The notes under the pieces were generated by a model that searched no databases, was not told the origin of the DNA, and saw only the letters and a program-made list of their open reading frames with translations. A stretch of DNA of 64,000 nucleotides from Pseudomonadota bacterium (GTDB taxonomy: Bacteria; Pseudomonadota; Alphaproteobacteria; Rhizobiales; Beijerinckiaceae), in NCBI GenBank assembly GCA_020161575.1, contig JAIUNR010000007.1:186001-250000 (forward strand), written 5' to 3'. Each line of letters starts with the position of its first letter. Position 1 is the stretch's first letter. Below, one piece after another: positions 35,794-43,512 of the stretch. A program made the position numbers and the translations under genes.

Positions 35794-36603
35794 ATGGCTG
35801 GCGTGATGCGCGGCAAACGCGGGCTCGTGATGGGTGTCGCGAATAATCGTTCGATTGCCTGGGGAATCGCGAAGGCTTGCCGCGAGGCCGGCGCCGAACT
35901 CGCCTTCACCTATCAGGGCGATGCGCTGCGCAAGCGTGTCGAGCCGCTGGCGGCGGAGCTTGGCGCGGCGGTTGTCGGCCATTGTGACGTGACCGACGGT
36001 GCGACCATCGATGCCGTTTTCGCCGAGGTCGAGCGGATCTGGGGCAAGATCGATTTCCTCGTCCATGCGATCGCCTTCTCGGACAAGGATGAATTGACCG
36101 GGCGCTATGTCGAGACGAGCGAGGAGAATTTCAGCAAGACCATGCTGATCTCGTGCTACTCGCTCACCGCTGTGGCACAGCGCGCCGAGAAGTTGATGAA
36201 GGATGGCGGCTCCATCCTCACGCTCACCTATTACGGTGCCGAGAAATGGATGCCTCATTACAACGTGATGGGTGTCGCCAAGGCGGCGCTGGAAGCGAGC
36301 GTGCGGTATCTGGCGGCGGATCTCGGCCCGAACGGCATTCGCGTCAACGCGATTTCCGCCGGCCCGATCAAGACGCTGGCGGCATCGGGGATCGGCGATT
36401 TCCGCTATATCCTCAAGTGGAACGAGTATAATTCGCCGCTTCGCCGCACGGTGACGATCGAGGAAGTGGGTACGAGCGCGGTGTATTTCCTCTCGGATAT
36501 GGGGCGCGGCGTGACGGGCGAGGTGACCCATGTCGATGCCGGCTATCATGTGGTCGGCATGAAGAACCCCGAAGCGCCGGATCTGTCGCTCGACAAGGAA
36601 TGA
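35794..36603 (+). CDS. fabI: enoyl-ACP reductase (NADH), FabI
   Basis: A 269-residue enoyl-ACP reductase for the last step of type II fatty-acid elongation. Seen: GKRGLVMGVANNRSIAWGIAKAC (NAD-binding), the Tyr-x6-Lys catalytic pair in HYNVMGVAKAAL near residue 156, and GPNGIRVNAISAGPIKTLAASGIGDF. ATG 35794 (MAGVMRGKRG) has AAGGAAG eight bases upstream; ATG 35767 would add nine residues. The stop overlaps an in-frame ATG of the next gene, so the following secreted-protein gene may be co-transcribed. Confidence 0.94.
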   Translation: MAGVMRGKRGLVMGVANNRSIAWGIAKACREAGAELAFTYQGDALRKRVEPLAAELGAAVVGHCDVTDGATIDAVFAEVERIWGKIDFLVHAIAFSDKDELTGRYVETSEENFSKTMLISCYSLTAVAQRAEKLMKDGGSILTLTYYGAEKWMPHYNVMGVAKAALEASVRYLAADLGPNGIRVNAISAGPIKTLAASGIGDFRYILKWNEYNSPLRRTVTIEEVGTSAVYFLSDMGRGVTGEVTHVDAGYHVVGMKNPEAPDLSLDKE

Positions 36604-36611
36604 GGAGCCTC

Positions 36612-37100
36612 ATGCACCGCCGCTTTCCCGCGCCTTTCCTGTCCGGTGTGATCACGATGCTTGCTTTGGCCGGGTCCGGCCTGCCGGCGGTTTCGCAGGC
36701 GATCACGCCGCAGGCTCCCGCCGCGCCGCCGGTCGCTGCCGTCTCCGCCGAAGCACCGAAGGTCGTGAAGACGGAAGTCGAGCGCAAGGGACGTTCGGGG
36801 CTCGAGATCTTCATTGGCACCTATCTCACCCTCTCGAAAGAGTGCAAGGTCGGCGCCAATCCCCGGCTTGAAGTCGCTACCCAGCCCAAGGGCGGCAAGG
36901 TGCATACGCGCCCGAACGCCATCAACCTGCGCGCCGTGCCCGGCGCGCCGAAGGGCAATTGCATCGGCACATCGCCCAACGGACTTGGGATTTTCTATCG
37001 CTCCGAGCGCAAGTTCAAGGGTGAGGATGCCTTCACCATCCGCCTTGTCTATCCAAGCGGCGACGTCCGCGAGGTCCATGCGAAGATGATCGTCGAGTAA
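36612..37100 (+). CDS. secreted Cys-containing protein, paralogue of the 41957 gene product
   Basis: A 162-residue exported protein with a signal peptide (FLSGVITMLALAGSGLPAVSQA). Its mature domain contains LTLSKECKVGANPRLEVATQPKGGKVH, KGNCIGTSPNGLGIFYRSERKFKGEDAFTIRL. The order of short motifs (EC...QPkgGK...GxC...YY/FY...FkGeD) recurs in the protein at 41957-42355. ATG 36612 has AGGAG four bases upstream; an earlier ATG at 36600 overlaps the fabI stop. The family is unknown. It sits 6 bases before the histidine-phosphatase gene and thus may belong to the Pls-like operon. Confidence 0.7.
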   Translation: MHRRFPAPFLSGVITMLALAGSGLPAVSQAITPQAPAAPPVAAVSAEAPKVVKTEVERKGRSGLEIFIGTYLTLSKECKVGANPRLEVATQPKGGKVHTRPNAINLRAVPGAPKGNCIGTSPNGLGIFYRSERKFKGEDAFTIRLVYPSGDVREVHAKMIVE

Positions 37101-37106
37101 CCTTGG

Positions 37107-37706
37107 ATGCAACGACTGTATTTTATTCGCCACGGCGAGACCGATTGGAATCGTGACGGGCGTCTTCAGGGGCACATCGATATTCCGCTCAACACGGCGG
37201 GAAAGCGGCAGGCAAAGGCCGCAGGCCTTCACCTCGACCGTCTTCTCGGGGCTACGTCGCAGGCGCTTCCGTTTTATGTAAGCCCCCTCGGGCGGACTCG
37301 CGAGACGGCAGAAATCGTTCGCGAGACGCTGCATGCCCCGCTTGGCGCTGTTGAGGAAGATGCCCGTCTCAAGGAGATCAATTTCGGCCAATGGGAAGGA
37401 AAGACCTGGCCCGAGATTCGCTCCCGGGATCCGGCAGGTGTACGTGGCCGCGACAAGGATCGCTGGAATTTTGTACCGACCGATGGCGAGAGCTACGCCA
37501 TGGTCGAAACACGGCTTTCAGCCTGGCTCGCAACGGTGCAGCAAGATGCGATCGTGGTGTCGCATACCGGGGTGTGCCGCGTGCTGATGGCGATTTTCGG
37601 CGTGAAACCACCCGCGGAGCTGGTCACTGAGGAGATCTGGCAGGGTAAGGTTCTGGTGCTCGAAAAGGGGCGCGCGGAATGGATTCCCGGCCCTGGGCAT
37701 CATTGA
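37107..37706 (+). CDS. histidine phosphatase family protein
   Basis: A 199-residue phosphoglycerate-mutase-like phosphatase. The catalytic RHGETDWN is at residues 8-15, the second Arg is in SPLGRTRETAE near residue 60, Glu near residue 90 (EDARLKEINFGQWEG), and the second His in VVSHTGVCRV near residue 152. Substrate unknown; such proteins act on phosphorylated sugars, nucleotides or proteins. It starts 6 bases after the secreted protein gene, so both may be made from the fabI-side transcript. It is separated by 139 bases from the large synthetase. Confidence 0.9.
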   Translation: MQRLYFIRHGETDWNRDGRLQGHIDIPLNTAGKRQAKAAGLHLDRLLGATSQALPFYVSPLGRTRETAEIVRETLHAPLGAVEEDARLKEINFGQWEGKTWPEIRSRDPAGVRGRDKDRWNFVPTDGESYAMVETRLSAWLATVQQDAIVVSHTGVCRVLMAIFGVKPPAELVTEEIWQGKVLVLEKGRAEWIPGPGHH

Positions 37707-37845
37707 GCGCGGCCGTTTCCGTTAAGCGCGCATTCAGCGCCGACACGTCTATAAGCAGCACTGCGGATTGACTTCTCTGTGAAGCTCCGCTGTTTTGCGG
37801 CACGGGTGTGGGTTGAGGCCCTGCGTTAGGGCCAGCGGAGACGGG

Positions 37846-40800
37846 ATGGACAATCGGGAGGCCGAACCAAAGGCGGCCGTGGACTTTCGCGCGCATCTTG
37901 CGGGAACACGGAATGATTCGCTGATCCGCGAGGAGTCTCTCGCGGATATTTTCCGGGCAAGCGCGGCAGCTGCGCCCGATAAGGTTCTGTTCCGGTCAGG
38001 CAACCGCCAGATGAGCTGGCGTGAAGCCGATGCGGCAACGGATCGCGCTGCCGCCAAACTGACGGCTCTTGGTGCCGGCCCCGGGCTCATCCTCGGTTTG
38101 TGGATGCCGCGCGGCATCGATCTCCTTCTTGCCCAGATCGCCATTGCCAAGAGCGGCGCCGCCTTCCTGCCCTTCGATGCGGATGCGCCTGTCGAGCGCA
38201 TCGCGACCTGCCTCGCGGATTGCGCCGCGATCGGGTTGGTGAGCAACGAAGCCGGCCTGGCGCTCACGCGCGGCCTTGCCGCGCCTGTTCATGAGGCGGG
38301 AGCGCTTCTGGCTGTCAACGATATGGAGACAAGGGAGCCTGCGAAAGCGGGGCCGGATGATCCCGCCTATCTCATTTACACTTCCGGCTCGACGGGTGTG
38401 CCCAAGGGGATTGTGATCTCCAATCGCAATATCTGCCATTTCCTGCGCGCTTCGAATGCGGTCTACGGGTTCAACGCCGAGGATGTCGTCTTCCAGAGCG
38501 GGTCCGTCGCGTTCGATCTGTCGATGGAGGAGATCTGGGTTTCCTATCTTGCCGGGGCGACGCTTTATGTCGCCACCTCGGAGATTCTCTCGGATATCGA
38601 GAACCTGCCCGCCGTGATGGCGCAGAACGGCGTTACCGTCATCGATACCGTGCCGACTTTGATCGCCGCGATCCCGAAGGATATTCCCAGCCTTCGCCTG
38701 ATCCTGTTCGGGGGCGAAGCGTTGCCGCCCGCTTTGGTCGAGCGCTGGTCGCGTCCGGGAAGGCGCATCCTCAATACCTATGGCCCGACGGAAGCCACGG
38801 TGGTCGCCACCTACGAGGAAGTGCGGGCGGGGCGTCCCGTCACGATCGGACGGCCGATCCCCAACTATACCTGCTATGTCGTGGACGAGGCACTGAACCT
38901 TCTTCCGCCAGGGCGGGAGGGTGAGCTTCTCATCGGGGGTCCCGGTATCGCCAGCGGCTATCTCGCACGACCGGAGCTGACGGCCGAAAAATTCATTCCC
39001 AACCCTTTCGTGGCGGATCTCGCCCTAGCGCCCGATCCGGTGCTCTATCGCTCGGGCGATGCCGTCAGTCTCAACGCGGATGGCAATCTCGCCTTCCTCG
39101 GGCGCATCGACGATCAGGTGAAGATCCGCGGGTTCCGCGTCGAGCTTGGCGAGATCGAGGCGGCGCTGGTTGATACGGATGATGTGTTTCAGGCGGCGGT
39201 CGTCGTACGGCAGGATGGCGGGATCGATCGCCTCGTGGCGTTTGTCGTGCCGGAGGCGGAGAGCATCATCGTTCCCACCACCTTGCGCGAGGAGCTCAAG
39301 CGTCGCCTGCCGCCCTACATGATCCCGGAGCGCTTCGAGACGATCGAGGCGCTGCCGCGCATGGTCTCGGGCAAGGCCGACCGCAAGGCGCTGAAGGGGC
39401 TCCCGCTTGCGGAGATCATTCCCGTGGAGGGCGAGGATGATACCGCCCTTACATCGACCGAAAAGCTGCTGCGCGACGCCGCGCACCGCGTGCTGCCGGG
39501 GCGTGCCATTGGGTTCGAGGCGGATTTCTTCCTCGACCTCGGCGGGCATTCGCTGATCGCGGCGCAATTCGTCTCGATCATCCGCGAGACGCCTGCTTTC
39601 GCGGGCATCACGCTGCAGGACATCTACCAGCTTCGTACCTTGCGCAAGATCGGCGCGGCGCTGGACGAGCGTTTCGGCACGCATGACGCGCCCCCGCCTG
39701 ATCTTTCCTTCACGCCGCCGTCCTTTGTGCGCCGTTTCATCTGCGGGGTGGCGCAGTTTGCCAGCCTGCCGCTGATCCTTTCCATCTCCACCCTGCAATG
39801 GCTGGGCGTGTTCATCACCTTCATGCTGGTGAACGAGAAGGATCTGACCTTCTGGGAGACGGTCGGCGTTCTGGTTACGGCTTATGTCTGCATCAAGTTC
39901 GGCACCCTGGCGCTCGTGATCGCGCTCAAATGGATGGTGCTCGGGCGGACGAAGCCGGGTCGCTACCCGCTCTGGGGCAGCTATTTCTTCCGCTGGTGGC
40001 TGGTGCACCGGCTCAATACGCTGGTTCATCCAAGCTATCTCGCCAATTCGCCCATCATGCGCCTCTATTTGCGGCTGATGGGGGCGAAGATCGGTTCGGG
40101 CGTGTTGATCGCCCATGCCGAATTCGGCGCCGCTGATCTCGTCGAGATCGGGGCGGGTGCTTCGATCGGCCACAAGGCGAATATCGCCAATGCCGAGGTG
40201 ATCGGCAACGAGCTGATCATCGGCCGGGTGACGATCGGGCGGGATGCCTATATCGGCAACCAATCCATCGTGCCCGCGGGCTGCGTGATCGGCGCCGATG
40301 CGCGTATCGAGGACATGACCGCTCTGGCCGATGATACGCATGTCGCGGCTTGCGAGATCTGGGACGGGTCACCGGCTCGTCATACGGGTATGGTTGATCG
40401 TGCCGCCCTGCCACAAAAATCACTGCCGGGACCAATCTGGCGGCATATGCAATATTGGGTCTACGGGCTGCTGATCCTCGCCTTTTCCGGCATCGGCCTC
40501 ATCCCGCTTTTCCCCGCCTTCTATGTTTTCGATAACCTCGAAACTTTGCTGGTGGACACGCTGCCCGGCGCGGAATGGTACCATGTGGTGCCTGTCGTTT
40601 CCTGGGTCATGGGCGCGGCCCTGGTGGTCTTCACGCTGGCCTTCGTCATCGCGATCCGCTGGATCCTGATGCCAAGGCGCTTGCAGGAGGGCACGCATTC
40701 CATCCATTCCTGGCTTTATCTGCGCCAATGGATGGTGAACCTCGCCACGGAAGTCTCGCTCGATACGCTCTCCTCGCTCTATGCCACCGTCTATATGCGC

Positions 40801-41874
40801 GGCTGGTATCGCCTGATGGGCGCGCGGATCGGCAAGGGCGCGGAAATCTCGACCAATATCGGCGCGCGCTATGATCTCATCTCGATCGGCGAAGGTTCTT
40901 TTATGGCCGATGAATGCGTGCTCGGCGACGAGGACAACCATCGCGGCTGGGTGACTTTCCGCAAGACGCGGATCGGCAACCGCGTCTTTGTCGGCAACAA
41001 TGCGGTAATCGCGCATGGCAGCGTGCTGGAGGAGGGCTCCCTTGTCGGGGTCAAATCACGCGCGCCCGATAGCGGCCATGTCGGGCGGGAGGAAACCTGG
41101 TTCGGCGCGCCGCCCATCAAGTTTCCGGTGCGCCAGAAATTCGGCGATGTCGGTGCCAACTGGACCTATGAGCCGCCCTTGCGCATGAAGCTTTGGCGCG
41201 CCGCCTTCGAGGCGATGCACACGACCTTCCCGACCATGCTGTTCCTCACGCTCGGGTCCATCGCGGTCTATTTTCATATCTATCCTGCTTACGAGAGGGG
41301 CAATTACGGGCTCGCGGCCTCGAAATTCGTGCTCGCCAGCATGATCATGCCGATGATCATGGTGCTCTCTGTCTGCGCGATCAAATGGCTGCTGATGGGC
41401 GTCTATCGGCCCGTCGCCAAGCCGATGTGGTCATGGTGGGCGATGAAGACGGAGGCCGTGGCCGTGCTCTATTGGGGGCTTGGCGGTAAGGTGCTGCTGG
41501 AGCATCTGCGCGGAACGCCTTTCCTGCCCATGATCCTGCGCCTGTTCGGCACCAAGGTCGGCAAGGGGGTCTACATGGACACCACCGACATTACCGAGTT
41601 CGATTGCGTCTCCATCGGCGATTATGTCGTCATGAACGATCTCTCCTGTCTCCAGACCCATCTCTACGAGGATCGCGTGATGAAGGTCGGCCGGGTCGAG
41701 GTCGGCAATGGTGTCACGATCGGCGCTTTCGCGACCGTGCTCTACGATACCAGGGTCGGTGACTTCGCGCGCCTCCAGCCGCTGACGCTGGTGATGAAGG
41801 GCGAGCATATCCCCGCCAGCACGATCTGGGGCGGCGCGCCGGCCCAGCCTGTGGCTCTGGCGCAACATAGATAA
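37846..41874 (+). CDS. Pls/PosA-like membrane nonribosomal peptide synthetase (poly-amino-acid synthetase type)
   Basis: A 1342-residue multidomain protein. Adenylation domain: YTSGSTGVPKG near residue 177, FDLSMEEIW near 222, NTYGPTEATVVA near 309, GRIDDQVKIRGFRVELGEIE near 418, SGKADRKAL near 507. Carrier domain: DLGGHSLIAAQ, Ser near residue 568 for phosphopantetheine. Six membrane helices (about 640-700, 870-935, 1125-1180) alternate with three left-handed beta-helix modules (about 745-830, 990-1070, 1235-1335). This is the known layout of epsilon-poly-lysine synthetase, where a loaded amino acid is polymerised at the membrane. The pocket residue aligned to GrsA 239 is Glu, favouring a cationic amino acid. 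GGAG five bases upstream fixes ATG 37846. Confidence 0.85.
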   Translation: MDNREAEPKAAVDFRAHLAGTRNDSLIREESLADIFRASAAAAPDKVLFRSGNRQMSWREADAATDRAAAKLTALGAGPGLILGLWMPRGIDLLLAQIAIAKSGAAFLPFDADAPVERIATCLADCAAIGLVSNEAGLALTRGLAAPVHEAGALLAVNDMETREPAKAGPDDPAYLIYTSGSTGVPKGIVISNRNICHFLRASNAVYGFNAEDVVFQSGSVAFDLSMEEIWVSYLAGATLYVATSEILSDIENLPAVMAQNGVTVIDTVPTLIAAIPKDIPSLRLILFGGEALPPALVERWSRPGRRILNTYGPTEATVVATYEEVRAGRPVTIGRPIPNYTCYVVDEALNLLPPGREGELLIGGPGIASGYLARPELTAEKFIPNPFVADLALAPDPVLYRSGDAVSLNADGNLAFLGRIDDQVKIRGFRVELGEIEAALVDTDDVFQAAVVVRQDGGIDRLVAFVVPEAESIIVPTTLREELKRRLPPYMIPERFETIEALPRMVSGKADRKALKGLPLAEIIPVEGEDDTALTSTEKLLRDAAHRVLPGRAIGFEADFFLDLGGHSLIAAQFVSIIRETPAFAGITLQDIYQLRTLRKIGAALDERFGTHDAPPPDLSFTPPSFVRRFICGVAQFASLPLILSISTLQWLGVFITFMLVNEKDLTFWETVGVLVTAYVCIKFGTLALVIALKWMVLGRTKPGRYPLWGSYFFRWWLVHRLNTLVHPSYLANSPIMRLYLRLMGAKIGSGVLIAHAEFGAADLVEIGAGASIGHKANIANAEVIGNELIIGRVTIGRDAYIGNQSIVPAGCVIGADARIEDMTALADDTHVAACEIWDGSPARHTGMVDRAALPQKSLPGPIWRHMQYWVYGLLILAFSGIGLIPLFPAFYVFDNLETLLVDTLPGAEWYHVVPVVSWVMGAALVVFTLAFVIAIRWILMPRRLQEGTHSIHSWLYLRQWMVNLATEVSLDTLSSLYATVYMRGWYRLMGARIGKGAEISTNIGARYDLISIGEGSFMADECVLGDEDNHRGWVTFRKTRIGNRVFVGNNAVIAHGSVLEEGSLVGVKSRAPDSGHVGREETWFGAPPIKFPVRQKFGDVGANWTYEPPLRMKLWRAAFEAMHTTFPTMLFLTLGSIAVYFHIYPAYERGNYGLAASKFVLASMIMPMIMVLSVCAIKWLLMGVYRPVAKPMWSWWAMKTEAVAVLYWGLGGKVLLEHLRGTPFLPMILRLFGTKVGKGVYMDTTDITEFDCVSIGDYVVMNDLSCLQTHLYEDRVMKVGRVEVGNGVTIGAFATVLYDTRVGDFARLQPLTLVMKGEHIPASTIWGGAPAQPVALAQHR

Positions 41875-41956
41875 AATACGTAGGTAAGGCGTGCGTTCTC
41901 GCTGGCTTAAGGAATGGCAATGGCTAGGGTCCGCCCGGTTCAACCGGGAGCGGATC

Positions 41957-42355
41957 ATGAAGTTTTTGAAAATCCTCGCCGCCGCCTTTTTTCTCGGCAA
42001 TCTCTGCCATGTGGCTGTTGCTGAAACGATCTCCGTCAATGTTCCGGCGGGCAAGAGAAGTGCCGTCACTTCCTTTGGCTCGTATTCGATTGACGAGTGC
42101 ACCGGTGCGGCCGTGCCGGAAGGGCGGATTTCGCGCCAGCCCGCGAACGGCAAGCTGGAAGTCGTCGAGGAGCGCAGGCCAATGAAGGCCGGGCGCTGCG
42201 GCACGATTATGGCCAATGTTCTGGTTGTGTACTACACGCCCAAGGCAGGCTTTCGCGGTTCTGACGAAGGCACCGTGGATTTCACCAGTCAGATCGTGAT
42301 GGAAAGCTCTCAGATTCGTTCGCGCAGTCTCTATCTCACCATCTCGGTGAAGTGA
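41957..42355 (+). CDS. secreted Cys-containing protein, paralogue of the 36612 gene product
   Basis: A 132-residue exported protein with signal peptide MKFLKILAAAFFLGNLCHVAVA. The mature part shows SYSIDECTGAAVPEGRISRQPANGKLEV, AGRCGTIMANVLVVYYTPKAGFRGSDEGTVDF, the same order of motifs as the protein at 36612-37100. ATG 41957 has GGAG six bases upstream, and that site lies in a small hairpin (41934-41948, CCCGGTT/AACCGGG) which could limit translation. Family unknown. It lies 82 bases after the Pls-like gene, so a link with that system is plausible but unproven. Confidence 0.68.
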   Translation: MKFLKILAAAFFLGNLCHVAVAETISVNVPAGKRSAVTSFGSYSIDECTGAAVPEGRISRQPANGKLEVVEERRPMKAGRCGTIMANVLVVYYTPKAGFRGSDEGTVDFTSQIVMESSQIRSRSLYLTISVK

Positions 42356-42426: not shown

Positions 42427-43512
42427 ATGTCGCATAATTCCTTCGGTCACCTTTTCCGCTTCACCACGTTTGGCGAAAGCCACGGCCCTGCCATCGGCTG
42501 CGTCGTTGATGGCTGCCCGCCGCGCATCGCGCTGACCGAGGCTGATATCCAGGCGGATCTCGACCGCCGGCGCCCCGGCCAGAGCCGCTTCACCACGCAG
42601 CGGCAGGAGCCGGATAACGTGAAGATCCTCTCCGGCGTTTTCACGGAGGCGGATGGTATCCAGCGCACGACCGGCACCTCGATCGGCCTCCTGATCGAGA
42701 ATGTCGATCAGCGCTCGAAGGATTATTCCGAGATCGCGCAGAAGTTCCGGCCGGGCCACGCCGATTACACCTATGACGCCAAATACGGCATCCGCGATCC
42801 GCGCGGCGGTGGCCGTTCCTCCGCGCGCGAGACCGCGATGCGGGTCGCCGCCGGTGCCATCGCGCGCAAGGTGATCCCATTCATGCGCATACGCGGCGCG
42901 TTGGTGCAGATGGGGCCGCACAAGATCGACCGCGCCAATTGGGATTGGGAAGAGGTCAACAACAACCCGTTCTTCTGCCCGGATGCGAAAGCGGCGACTT
43001 TCTTCGCGGATTACCTCGATCAAATCCGCAAATCCGGCTCCTCCATCGGCGCGGTGATCGAGGTCGTGGCGGAAGGCGTGCCGGCTGGGCTTGGCGCGCC
43101 GATCTACGGCAAGCTCGATGCCGATCTCGCCTCCGCGATGATGTCGATCAATGCCGTAAAAGGCGTGGAAATCGGCGCCGGCTTCGGCGCGGCCGAACTC
43201 ACGGGCGAGGAAAACGCCGATGAGATGCGGGCGGGAAATGACGGTTCCCCGCGCTTCACCGCCAACCATGCCGGCGGGATCCTAGGCGGTATTTCAAGCG
43301 GTCAGCCGGTTGTCGTGCGCTTCGCGGTGAAGCCAACTTCGTCGATACTCACGCCGCGCCTGACCGTCGACAAGGCAGGCGCTGAAACCGAGATTCTGAC
43401 CAAGGGACGACACGATCCCTGCGTCGGCATCCGCGCCGTCCCTGTAGGAGAGGCGATGATGGCGATTGTCCTTGCGGACCATTTTTTGCGACATCGCGCG
43501 CAGGTGGGGTGA
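42427..43512 (+). CDS. aroC: chorismate synthase
   Basis: A 361-residue FMN-dependent enzyme that forms chorismate from EPSP in the shikimate pathway. Seen: [32 protein letters not shown], the [17 protein letters not shown] signature, [29 protein letters not shown] and [18 protein letters not shown]. The length is the family norm. It is a single gene on this strand, 71 bases after the secreted protein. Confidence 0.97.

Follow-up and report, generated by a model that had tools for sequence, protein, structure and literature searches.

The window analysed here is a stretch of 64,000 nucleotides from an alphaproteobacterium of the family Beijerinckiaceae (contig JAIUNR010000007.1, positions 186,001 to 250,000), and one of its genes probably encodes a single-module, membrane-bound synthetase of a cationic homo-poly(amino acid), a reading in which we infer all catalytic steps from sequence. 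The initial annotation had placed a poly(amino acid) synthetase of the Pls/PosA type at 37846–41874, and these coordinates proved exact; all parts of that annotation that sequence can test were borne out. The NCBIfam terminal-domain model TIGR02353, ‘Pls/PosA family NRPS’ (non-ribosomal peptide synthetase), matched the protein at 592 bits against a cut-off of 423, with residues 635–1333 aligned to model positions 1–695 of 695, far above chance. The closest known system is PosA, the delta-poly-L-ornithine synthetase of Acinetobacter baumannii (PMC10522769; PDB 8g95–8g98). The two proteins are collinear over their full length, terminal domain included, and share ∼41% identity across 98% of it, the PosA copy compared being that of a strain other than the assayed one.

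Domain layout and terminal domain

The reading frame of 1342 amino acids is intact from an in-frame ATG to the stop codon. GGAG stands immediately 5′ of this ATG, and the mechanical list of open reading frames (ORFs) places the start further upstream, at a TTG. The TTGAC of a putative promoter upstream (Table 1) is conserved in 10 of 11 aligned members of the genus. A Pfam scan at E 0.001 found AMP-binding, AMP-binding_C, PP-binding, Hexapep and two weaker beta-helix models, and neither a Condensation nor a Thioesterase domain, in agreement with the annotation; an ordinary NRPS was rejected on this ground. An adenylation and a carrier domain followed by a terminal domain of ∼700 amino acids is the layout of the Pls/PosA family. 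It recurs in Pls, the Streptomyces epsilon-poly-L-lysine synthetase, which likewise has Glu at GrsA position 239 (PMC10522769), and in the synthetase of poly-L-diaminopropionate, where the adenylation and carrier domains precede membrane helices and tandem domains (excerpts of PMC4668381). Of the PDB chains that hold a single adenylation domain, PosA gave the best match to that of the window protein (8g95, 384 bits), above the adenylation domain of the epsilon-poly-L-lysine synthase (7wew, 273 bits); two-domain chains sum to higher scores.

The terminal region was modelled with AlphaFold2 (residues 530–1342, 25 aligned sequences; best of five models, pLDDT 81 and pTM 0.79; the remaining four, pLDDT 46 to 70). 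The best model predicts three pairs of long helices with a beta-helix after each pair, and the three units of helix pair and beta-helix are mutually homologous in profile–profile comparison (hhalign probabilities 99.8, 99.5 and 97.9%). Five of the six helices passed a hydropathy cut-off of 1.6 over 19 residues and the fifth (∼1112–1150) failed it, so that the family arrangement of three helix pairs alternating with three tandem domains is present with one helix below the cut-off. Structure prediction thus bore out the alternation of six membrane helices with three left-handed beta-helix modules described in the initial annotation, and the predicted fold agrees with the model of the PosA terminal domain described by Patel and Gulick (PMC10522769). 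In Foldseek the top matches of the terminal-domain model were left-handed beta-helix acetyltransferases, with alignments of 111–377 columns against the 813-residue model and TM-scores by query length of 0.08–0.14 among the 50 matches listed; solved structures gave only weak beta-helix matches to the terminal domain, carbonic anhydrases among them.

Conservation was read from an alignment of 101 rows, 10 of which come from contigs that are represented twice and from which two split-locus rows were excluded; identity to the window protein ranges from 27 to 100%. Q1270, H1272, E1275 and K1280, all in the third beta-helix module, are invariant wherever a row extends that far (99 or 100 of 101 rows); R1277 is variable, with Gly in 15 rows.

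We propose that the adenylation domain would use ATP to activate a basic diamino acid, which would then be loaded as a thioester onto a phosphopantetheine arm at S569. The three units of the terminal domain may fold into one pseudo-trimer, which would add monomers one after another. The bond would probably involve the side-chain amine, as it does in Pls and PosA, and the candidate catalytic base is H1272, in the third unit. What we say of the monomer, of the linkage and length of the chain, and of its export and role is likewise inferred.

Table 1. Features of the synthetase gene and of its conserved neighbours, in window coordinates.
Feature	Coordinates	Strand	Evidence
Probable Pls/PosA-family poly(amino acid) synthetase	37846..41874	+	TIGR02353 match, intact frame, PosA identity
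Adenylation domain (residues 30–517)	37933..39396	+	AMP-binding, 258 bits
Pocket residues D224, L225, E228 (GrsA 235, 236, 239)	38515..38529	+	Code alignment
Second acidic pocket residue D267 (GrsA 278)	38644..38646	+	Branch-typical; His in PosA
Carrier domain (∼residues 540–607)	39463..39666	+	PP-binding, 25.4 bits, cut-off 20.8
Carrier attachment serine S569, in LGGHSLIA	39550–39552	+	Ser in 101/101 alignment rows
Membrane helices 1–2 (residues 627–699)	39724..39942	+	Model helices, hydropathy
Left-handed beta-helix module 1 (∼residues 754–849)	40105..40392	+	Model, Hexapep
Membrane helices 3–4 (residues 863–941)	40432..40668	+	Model, hydropathy
Left-handed beta-helix module 2 (∼residues 999–1094)	40840..41127	+	Model
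Membrane helices 5–6 (residues 1112–1183)	41179..41394	+	Model; helix 5 under hydropathy cut-off
Left-handed beta-helix module 3 (∼residues 1239–1332), motif QTHLYEDRVMK	41560..41841	+	Model
Candidate catalytic H1272	41659–41661	+	His in 99/99 rows reaching the column, across code classes
Possible promoter, TTGACT-N17-TGTTTT	37768..37796	+	Weak; 5′ of synthetase; −10 picked by eye
gpm (histidine phosphatase family), conserved upstream neighbour	37107..37706	+	His_Phos_1, 150 bits; synteny
aroC (chorismate synthase), conserved downstream neighbour	42427..43512	+	TIGR00033, 432 bits, cut-off 212; synteny

Substrate pocket and the DLED branch

The pocket residues D224, L225, E228, D267, L287, G289, T311, V319, V320 and K510 read DLEDLGTVVK. 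This is the code that had been proposed, D-L-E-x-L-G-T-V-V-K with Glu at GrsA 239, and its x is Asp; we use the first four letters, DLED, as the name of the branch. PosA reads DMEHNGTVSK in the same alignment, and because the residues that fall there are the published ones (D217, M218, E221, H260, N280, T304, V312 and S313; PMC10522769), we regard the columns as checked. The Pls/PosA family criterion is an Asp as first and a Glu as third code residue (PMC10522769), here D224 and E228. These two residues and T311 correspond to PosA D217, E221 and T304; activity of the PosA mutants D217A and E221A was undetectable, and kcat/KM for ornithine was ∼33-fold lower in T304A and ∼180-fold lower in S313A (quotients computed here from values tabulated in PMC10522769).

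The pockets differ at four places, M218, H260, N280 and S313 of PosA being L225, D267, L287 and V320 in the window protein. With Val for Ser313 and Asp for His260, ornithine use by PosA cannot simply be transferred to the window enzyme. We do not class the latter as a PosA ortholog of known specificity, because two of the four residues of the ornithine subtype (M218, E221, T304 and S313, here L225, E228, T311 and V320) differ. It also departs from the lysine subtype of Pls, which has Ala at GrsA 236 (PMC10522769) where the window protein has Leu, and the DAES sequences lie outside the group formed by the DLED and DMEH sequences. Pocket codes in this family are described as degenerate (PMC10522769).

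Phylogenies were built with FastTree and rooted, by assumption, on DFE and DYE sequences. In the full-length trees (86-row and 85-row sets) the DLED sequences form a single clade, with support of 0.992 and 0.968, as they do in trees of the adenylation domain (0.90) and of the terminal domain (0.978). This clade is sister to PosA in all three kinds of tree (1.0 at full length, 0.943 for the adenylation domain and 1.0 for the terminal domain), and in the full-length trees the remaining DMEH sequences branch next to the pair. Deeper nodes are weak: DLED, PosA and L072 are joined with 0.344 in the adenylation-domain tree, and DLED and all DMEH sequences with 0.061 in the terminal-domain tree. Our reading is that a DMEH ancestor may have switched to DLED once. 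The separate trees agree on the clade and on its sister, and a swap of domains between the protein's two halves was rejected for that reason.

The initial guess at specificity, a basic amino acid such as Lys or Orn, can be narrowed by this placement of the branch as sister to PosA among ornithine-type codes, by the second acidic residue D267 and by Val320 in place of Ser313. We tentatively take L-ornithine as the likeliest monomer, at nearly an even chance. L-lysine would come second as a named candidate and is rather unlikely; another monomer, possibly one new to the Pls/PosA family, is somewhat doubtful. The equation of DMEH with ornithine rests on PosA, the sole assayed DMEH enzyme (PMC10522769).

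The branch is already in print as substrate-unknown, and this gene is no first sighting of it. “DLEDIGTV(T/V/I)K” of rhizobia and Methylobacterium is given as a unique signature (PMC10522769), and DLedLgTVvK was reported as an antiSMASH NAPAA region in all eight complete genomes of Bosea (PMC10508160); the latter is identical to the window code in all ten residues, and that paper gives no monomer, clade, synteny or function. NAPAA regions have also been counted in surveys of Methylobacterium and of methanotrophs (excerpts of PMC9964534 and PMC11964084). A text search by code letters returned only the Bosea note and misses codes spelled with spaces, as in PMC10522769. We found no published report of a monomer or function for the DLED branch, subscription papers and supplements lying outside the search. 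The claim that the product is undescribed in this lineage therefore stands as far as we found no paper naming it; the code and the branch had already been published. What is new here is a clade that holds D-L-E-D only, its placement as sister to PosA in three trees, and, in the window's family, a conserved location at a housekeeping site.

In a sample of 297 genomes of the order, 51 had a match with E no higher than 1e-100, with 52 matches in total: 26 DLED, 14 DFE, four DAES, three DGES, two DMEH, one DYE and two split forms. DLED, for which no published monomer was found, is thus the commonest type sampled in the order, and 14 of its 26 matches are from the window's family. Eleven of 387 genomes in a class sample had a match; four belong to the window's family, and the other seven comprise two DLED, two DAES, one DVEA, one DFEH and one masked sequence. 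The loci fetched for comparison (103 rows) were collected around the window and are for that reason enriched in DLED. D-L-E-D was read in 72 of these rows, or 62 without second copies, two further rows being unreadable there; the 62 comprise DLEDIGSVVK (30), DLEDLGTVVK (23), DLEDIGTVVK (8) and DLEDVGTVVK (1). This count sorts by the letters themselves, and the independent statement comes from the tree, where the window protein, L094 and L126 span a clade of 59 tips, all of which carry D-L-E-D. The four letters are kept down to ∼48% identity to the window protein; the DFE-type relatives of the order, at 27–35% identity, have Phe at GrsA 236, unlike the Leu of the window protein.

Housekeeping locus and rival explanations

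PosA forms a single-gene operon (PMC10522769), whereas the window gene lies within a conserved housekeeping string, as expected from the alphaproteobacterial core region in which it had been placed. Among 21 genera of the window's family, 14 have the DLED gene, one has a DFE gene and six have none, two of the six genomes without a Pls/PosA gene being only 78–79% complete. In 13 of the 14 DLED genera the synthetase has beside it, on the same strand, homologues of fabI, gpm or both on its 5′ side, or of aroC on its 3′ side: neighbours on both sides in eight genera, upstream genes only in four and aroC only in one. One locus (L118, genome G035) has none of the three within 14 kb, and in another (L111, G026) aroC is displaced and inverted; for most loci coverage extended ∼6 kb 5′ and ∼4 kb 3′ of the gene, and misses are accordingly soft. 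The same gene order was found in a genus of another family (G085, L100), and was not seen in the stretches covered at the DLED loci of Rhizobium, Azospirillum and Methylocystis and at the other loci compared. Among 20 genomes without a DLED gene, examined with a flank of 1.5 kb, gpm lies at most ∼1.3 kb from aroC in 11, and in six of these 11 fabI adjoins.

Pairwise distances of the synthetase correlate with the corresponding distances of fabI (r = 0.85, 24 loci), gpm (0.77, 24 loci), aroC (0.90, 20 loci) and dnaJ (0.96, 18 loci), and in each case none of 999 permutations reached the value; the control pairs fabI–aroC and gpm–aroC gave 0.92 and 0.82. Many of the loci are from genus-mates, which inflates all of these r values. 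In the window's genus all 17 genomes match, G016 with only a fragment in a 298-residue frame, below the cut-off. Because of this synteny and these correlations, our reading is that the synthetase may have entered the site early and then been inherited mostly vertically; an ancestral, mostly vertically inherited gene is the best reading of the locus. A recent plasmid-borne acquisition in the window's lineage was rejected on the same evidence.

Several observations weigh against our main reading, a cationic poly(amino acid) synthetase with ornithine as its likeliest monomer. The top full NRPS model of NCBIfam, below the generic adenylation model, is MxcG, at 352 bits. MxcG loads lysine. The replacement of PosA Ser313 and His260 counts in the same direction, as does the fact that no assay of any DLED-branch enzyme was found in the literature searched. 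A Pls homologue from the Bdellovibrionales, outside the DLED branch, activated arginine and none of the four diamino acids tested (PMC10522769). A rival reading is that the gene encodes a polymer synthetase whose pocket, with E228 and D267, selects a monomer beyond diaminopropionate, diaminobutyrate, ornithine, lysine and beta-lysine, for example arginine or a modified diamino acid. Such a pocket would fit a code unlike the DMEH, DAES, DGES, DFE, DYE and split forms of the order sample, held without exception across the clade and down to ∼48% identity, and counted among the unique signatures in PMC10522769. Leu at position 236 is, however, near the Met of PosA in size, codes are degenerate as noted above, and no monomer-making gene stood among the identified recurrent neighbours, a weak point as most groups were left unidentified; we regard a new monomer as possible and somewhat doubtful. 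Rather less probable still is the wider proposal that the DLED branch makes a cationic polymer from a monomer new to the family, with an old chromosomal gene, retained at a single site in most carrier genera of a family, serving a general envelope or stress function and not competition. Natural cationic poly(amino acids) have a use in food preservation, and poly-ornithine acts against fungi (PMC10522769). A form of the gene fixed at a housekeeping locus would suggest that cationic polymers can belong to ordinary cell physiology.

With adenylation and carrier chemistry unchanged, the terminal domain might instead transfer residues, singly or as short oligomers, to an acceptor in the membrane, for example a lipid or a polysaccharide, and so alter surface charge. 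An envelope aminoacyl transferase of this kind would suit the resemblance of the terminal-domain units to acetyltransferases acting on sugars and amino acids, the standing of the gene as a conserved chromosomal resident by fabI, gpm and aroC with no obvious antibiotic cluster, and the two-component genes found beside rhizobial copies (see below). We consider it unlikely, as PosA, which among characterised enzymes is closest to the window protein, yields free polymer in vitro (PMC10522769) and has the candidate active-site motif QTHL[FY]EDR in common with it. That the gene is a degenerate or non-functional remnant is very improbable: the frame is intact, the pocket, carrier serine and candidate catalytic residues are conserved, and mean within-genus identity (82%) lies between that of dnaJ (76%) and that of aroC (90%). 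A cationic poly(amino acid) synthetase thus remains our preferred reading of the gene.

Partner genes and relatives elsewhere

At five DLED loci, all from a single other family, a transferase-like frame of 225–248 amino acids lies 18–90 bases 5′ of the synthetase open frame. Three of these exceed the Pfam cut-off for phosphopantetheinyl transferases and one is just below it; the fifth, at L102, has no Pfam match and is related to the others by blastp similarity (E 2e-39 to the L094 frame). A gene of the phosphopantetheinyl-transferase type lies directly 3′ of the synthetase in Rhizobium CCGE531 and at L125. In no fewer than 7 of the 18 DLED loci compared outside the fabI–gpm–aroC setting, the synthetase thus has a carrier-activating transferase gene next to it, a lower bound in that frames overlapping the synthetase were excluded; this counts in favour of the synthetase reading. 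The window's genome encodes elsewhere an AcpS (TIGR00516, 99 bits, cut-off 60) and an EntD-like transferase (92 bits, below the cut-off of 169).

Of the six loci in the rhizobial sub-branch, five (L087, L091, L092, L093 and L097) have an OmpR-type response regulator and a sensor kinase encoded divergently upstream, four of the five being from one genus; L125 lacks the pair. This arrangement suggests signal-regulated expression of the rhizobial copies. No monomer-making gene was seen among identified neighbours in a comparison of ORF groups present in at least three loci, at least two of them outside the housekeeping setting; the groups identified were transferases and a two-component system, and most recurrent groups were left unidentified, which makes this negative weak.

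A split relative, L128 (G047:C96, 377–10060), encodes a 1116-residue protein with four tandem carrier domains and a Pls/PosA terminal domain (664 bits). It has no adenylation domain and adjoins a separate protein with a partial condensation, an adenylation and a carrier domain. Its neighbours include a homologue of SbnB (384 bits, above the cut-off) and one of SbnA (258 bits, below the cut-off and cut by the end of the stretch). SbnA and SbnB make 2,3-diaminopropionate, and L128 looks like a multi-piece poly-diaminopropionate synthetase. The frames of L129 (G151:C188) are sized like those of L128.

Two small proteins flank the string in the window, at 36600–37100 before gpm and at 41939–42355 after the synthetase. 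Both have N-termini that look signal-like on visual inspection, neither matches a Pfam or NCBIfam model, and they are related to each other (27% identity over 82 amino acids, blastp E 9e-6 in a one-sequence comparison). The one before gpm is not tied to the synthetase, because it occurs at the same locus in G018, which lacks the synthetase.

The Azospirillum and rhizobial DLED copies are located on large secondary replicons. In Azospirillum thermophilum (L085, 1622–8010) such a replicon carries a divergent rRNA operon ∼1 kb from the gene. On 11 draft contigs (L047–L056 and L061; ten Azospirillum and one named Roseomonas) the gene lies 0.5–1.4 kb from the contig end, a position that a nearby rRNA operon would explain. 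In the window's own genome, contigs C8, C15 and C17 carry further large adenylation genes of the NRPS type, with open frames of up to 3080 amino acids, some of them at contig ends.

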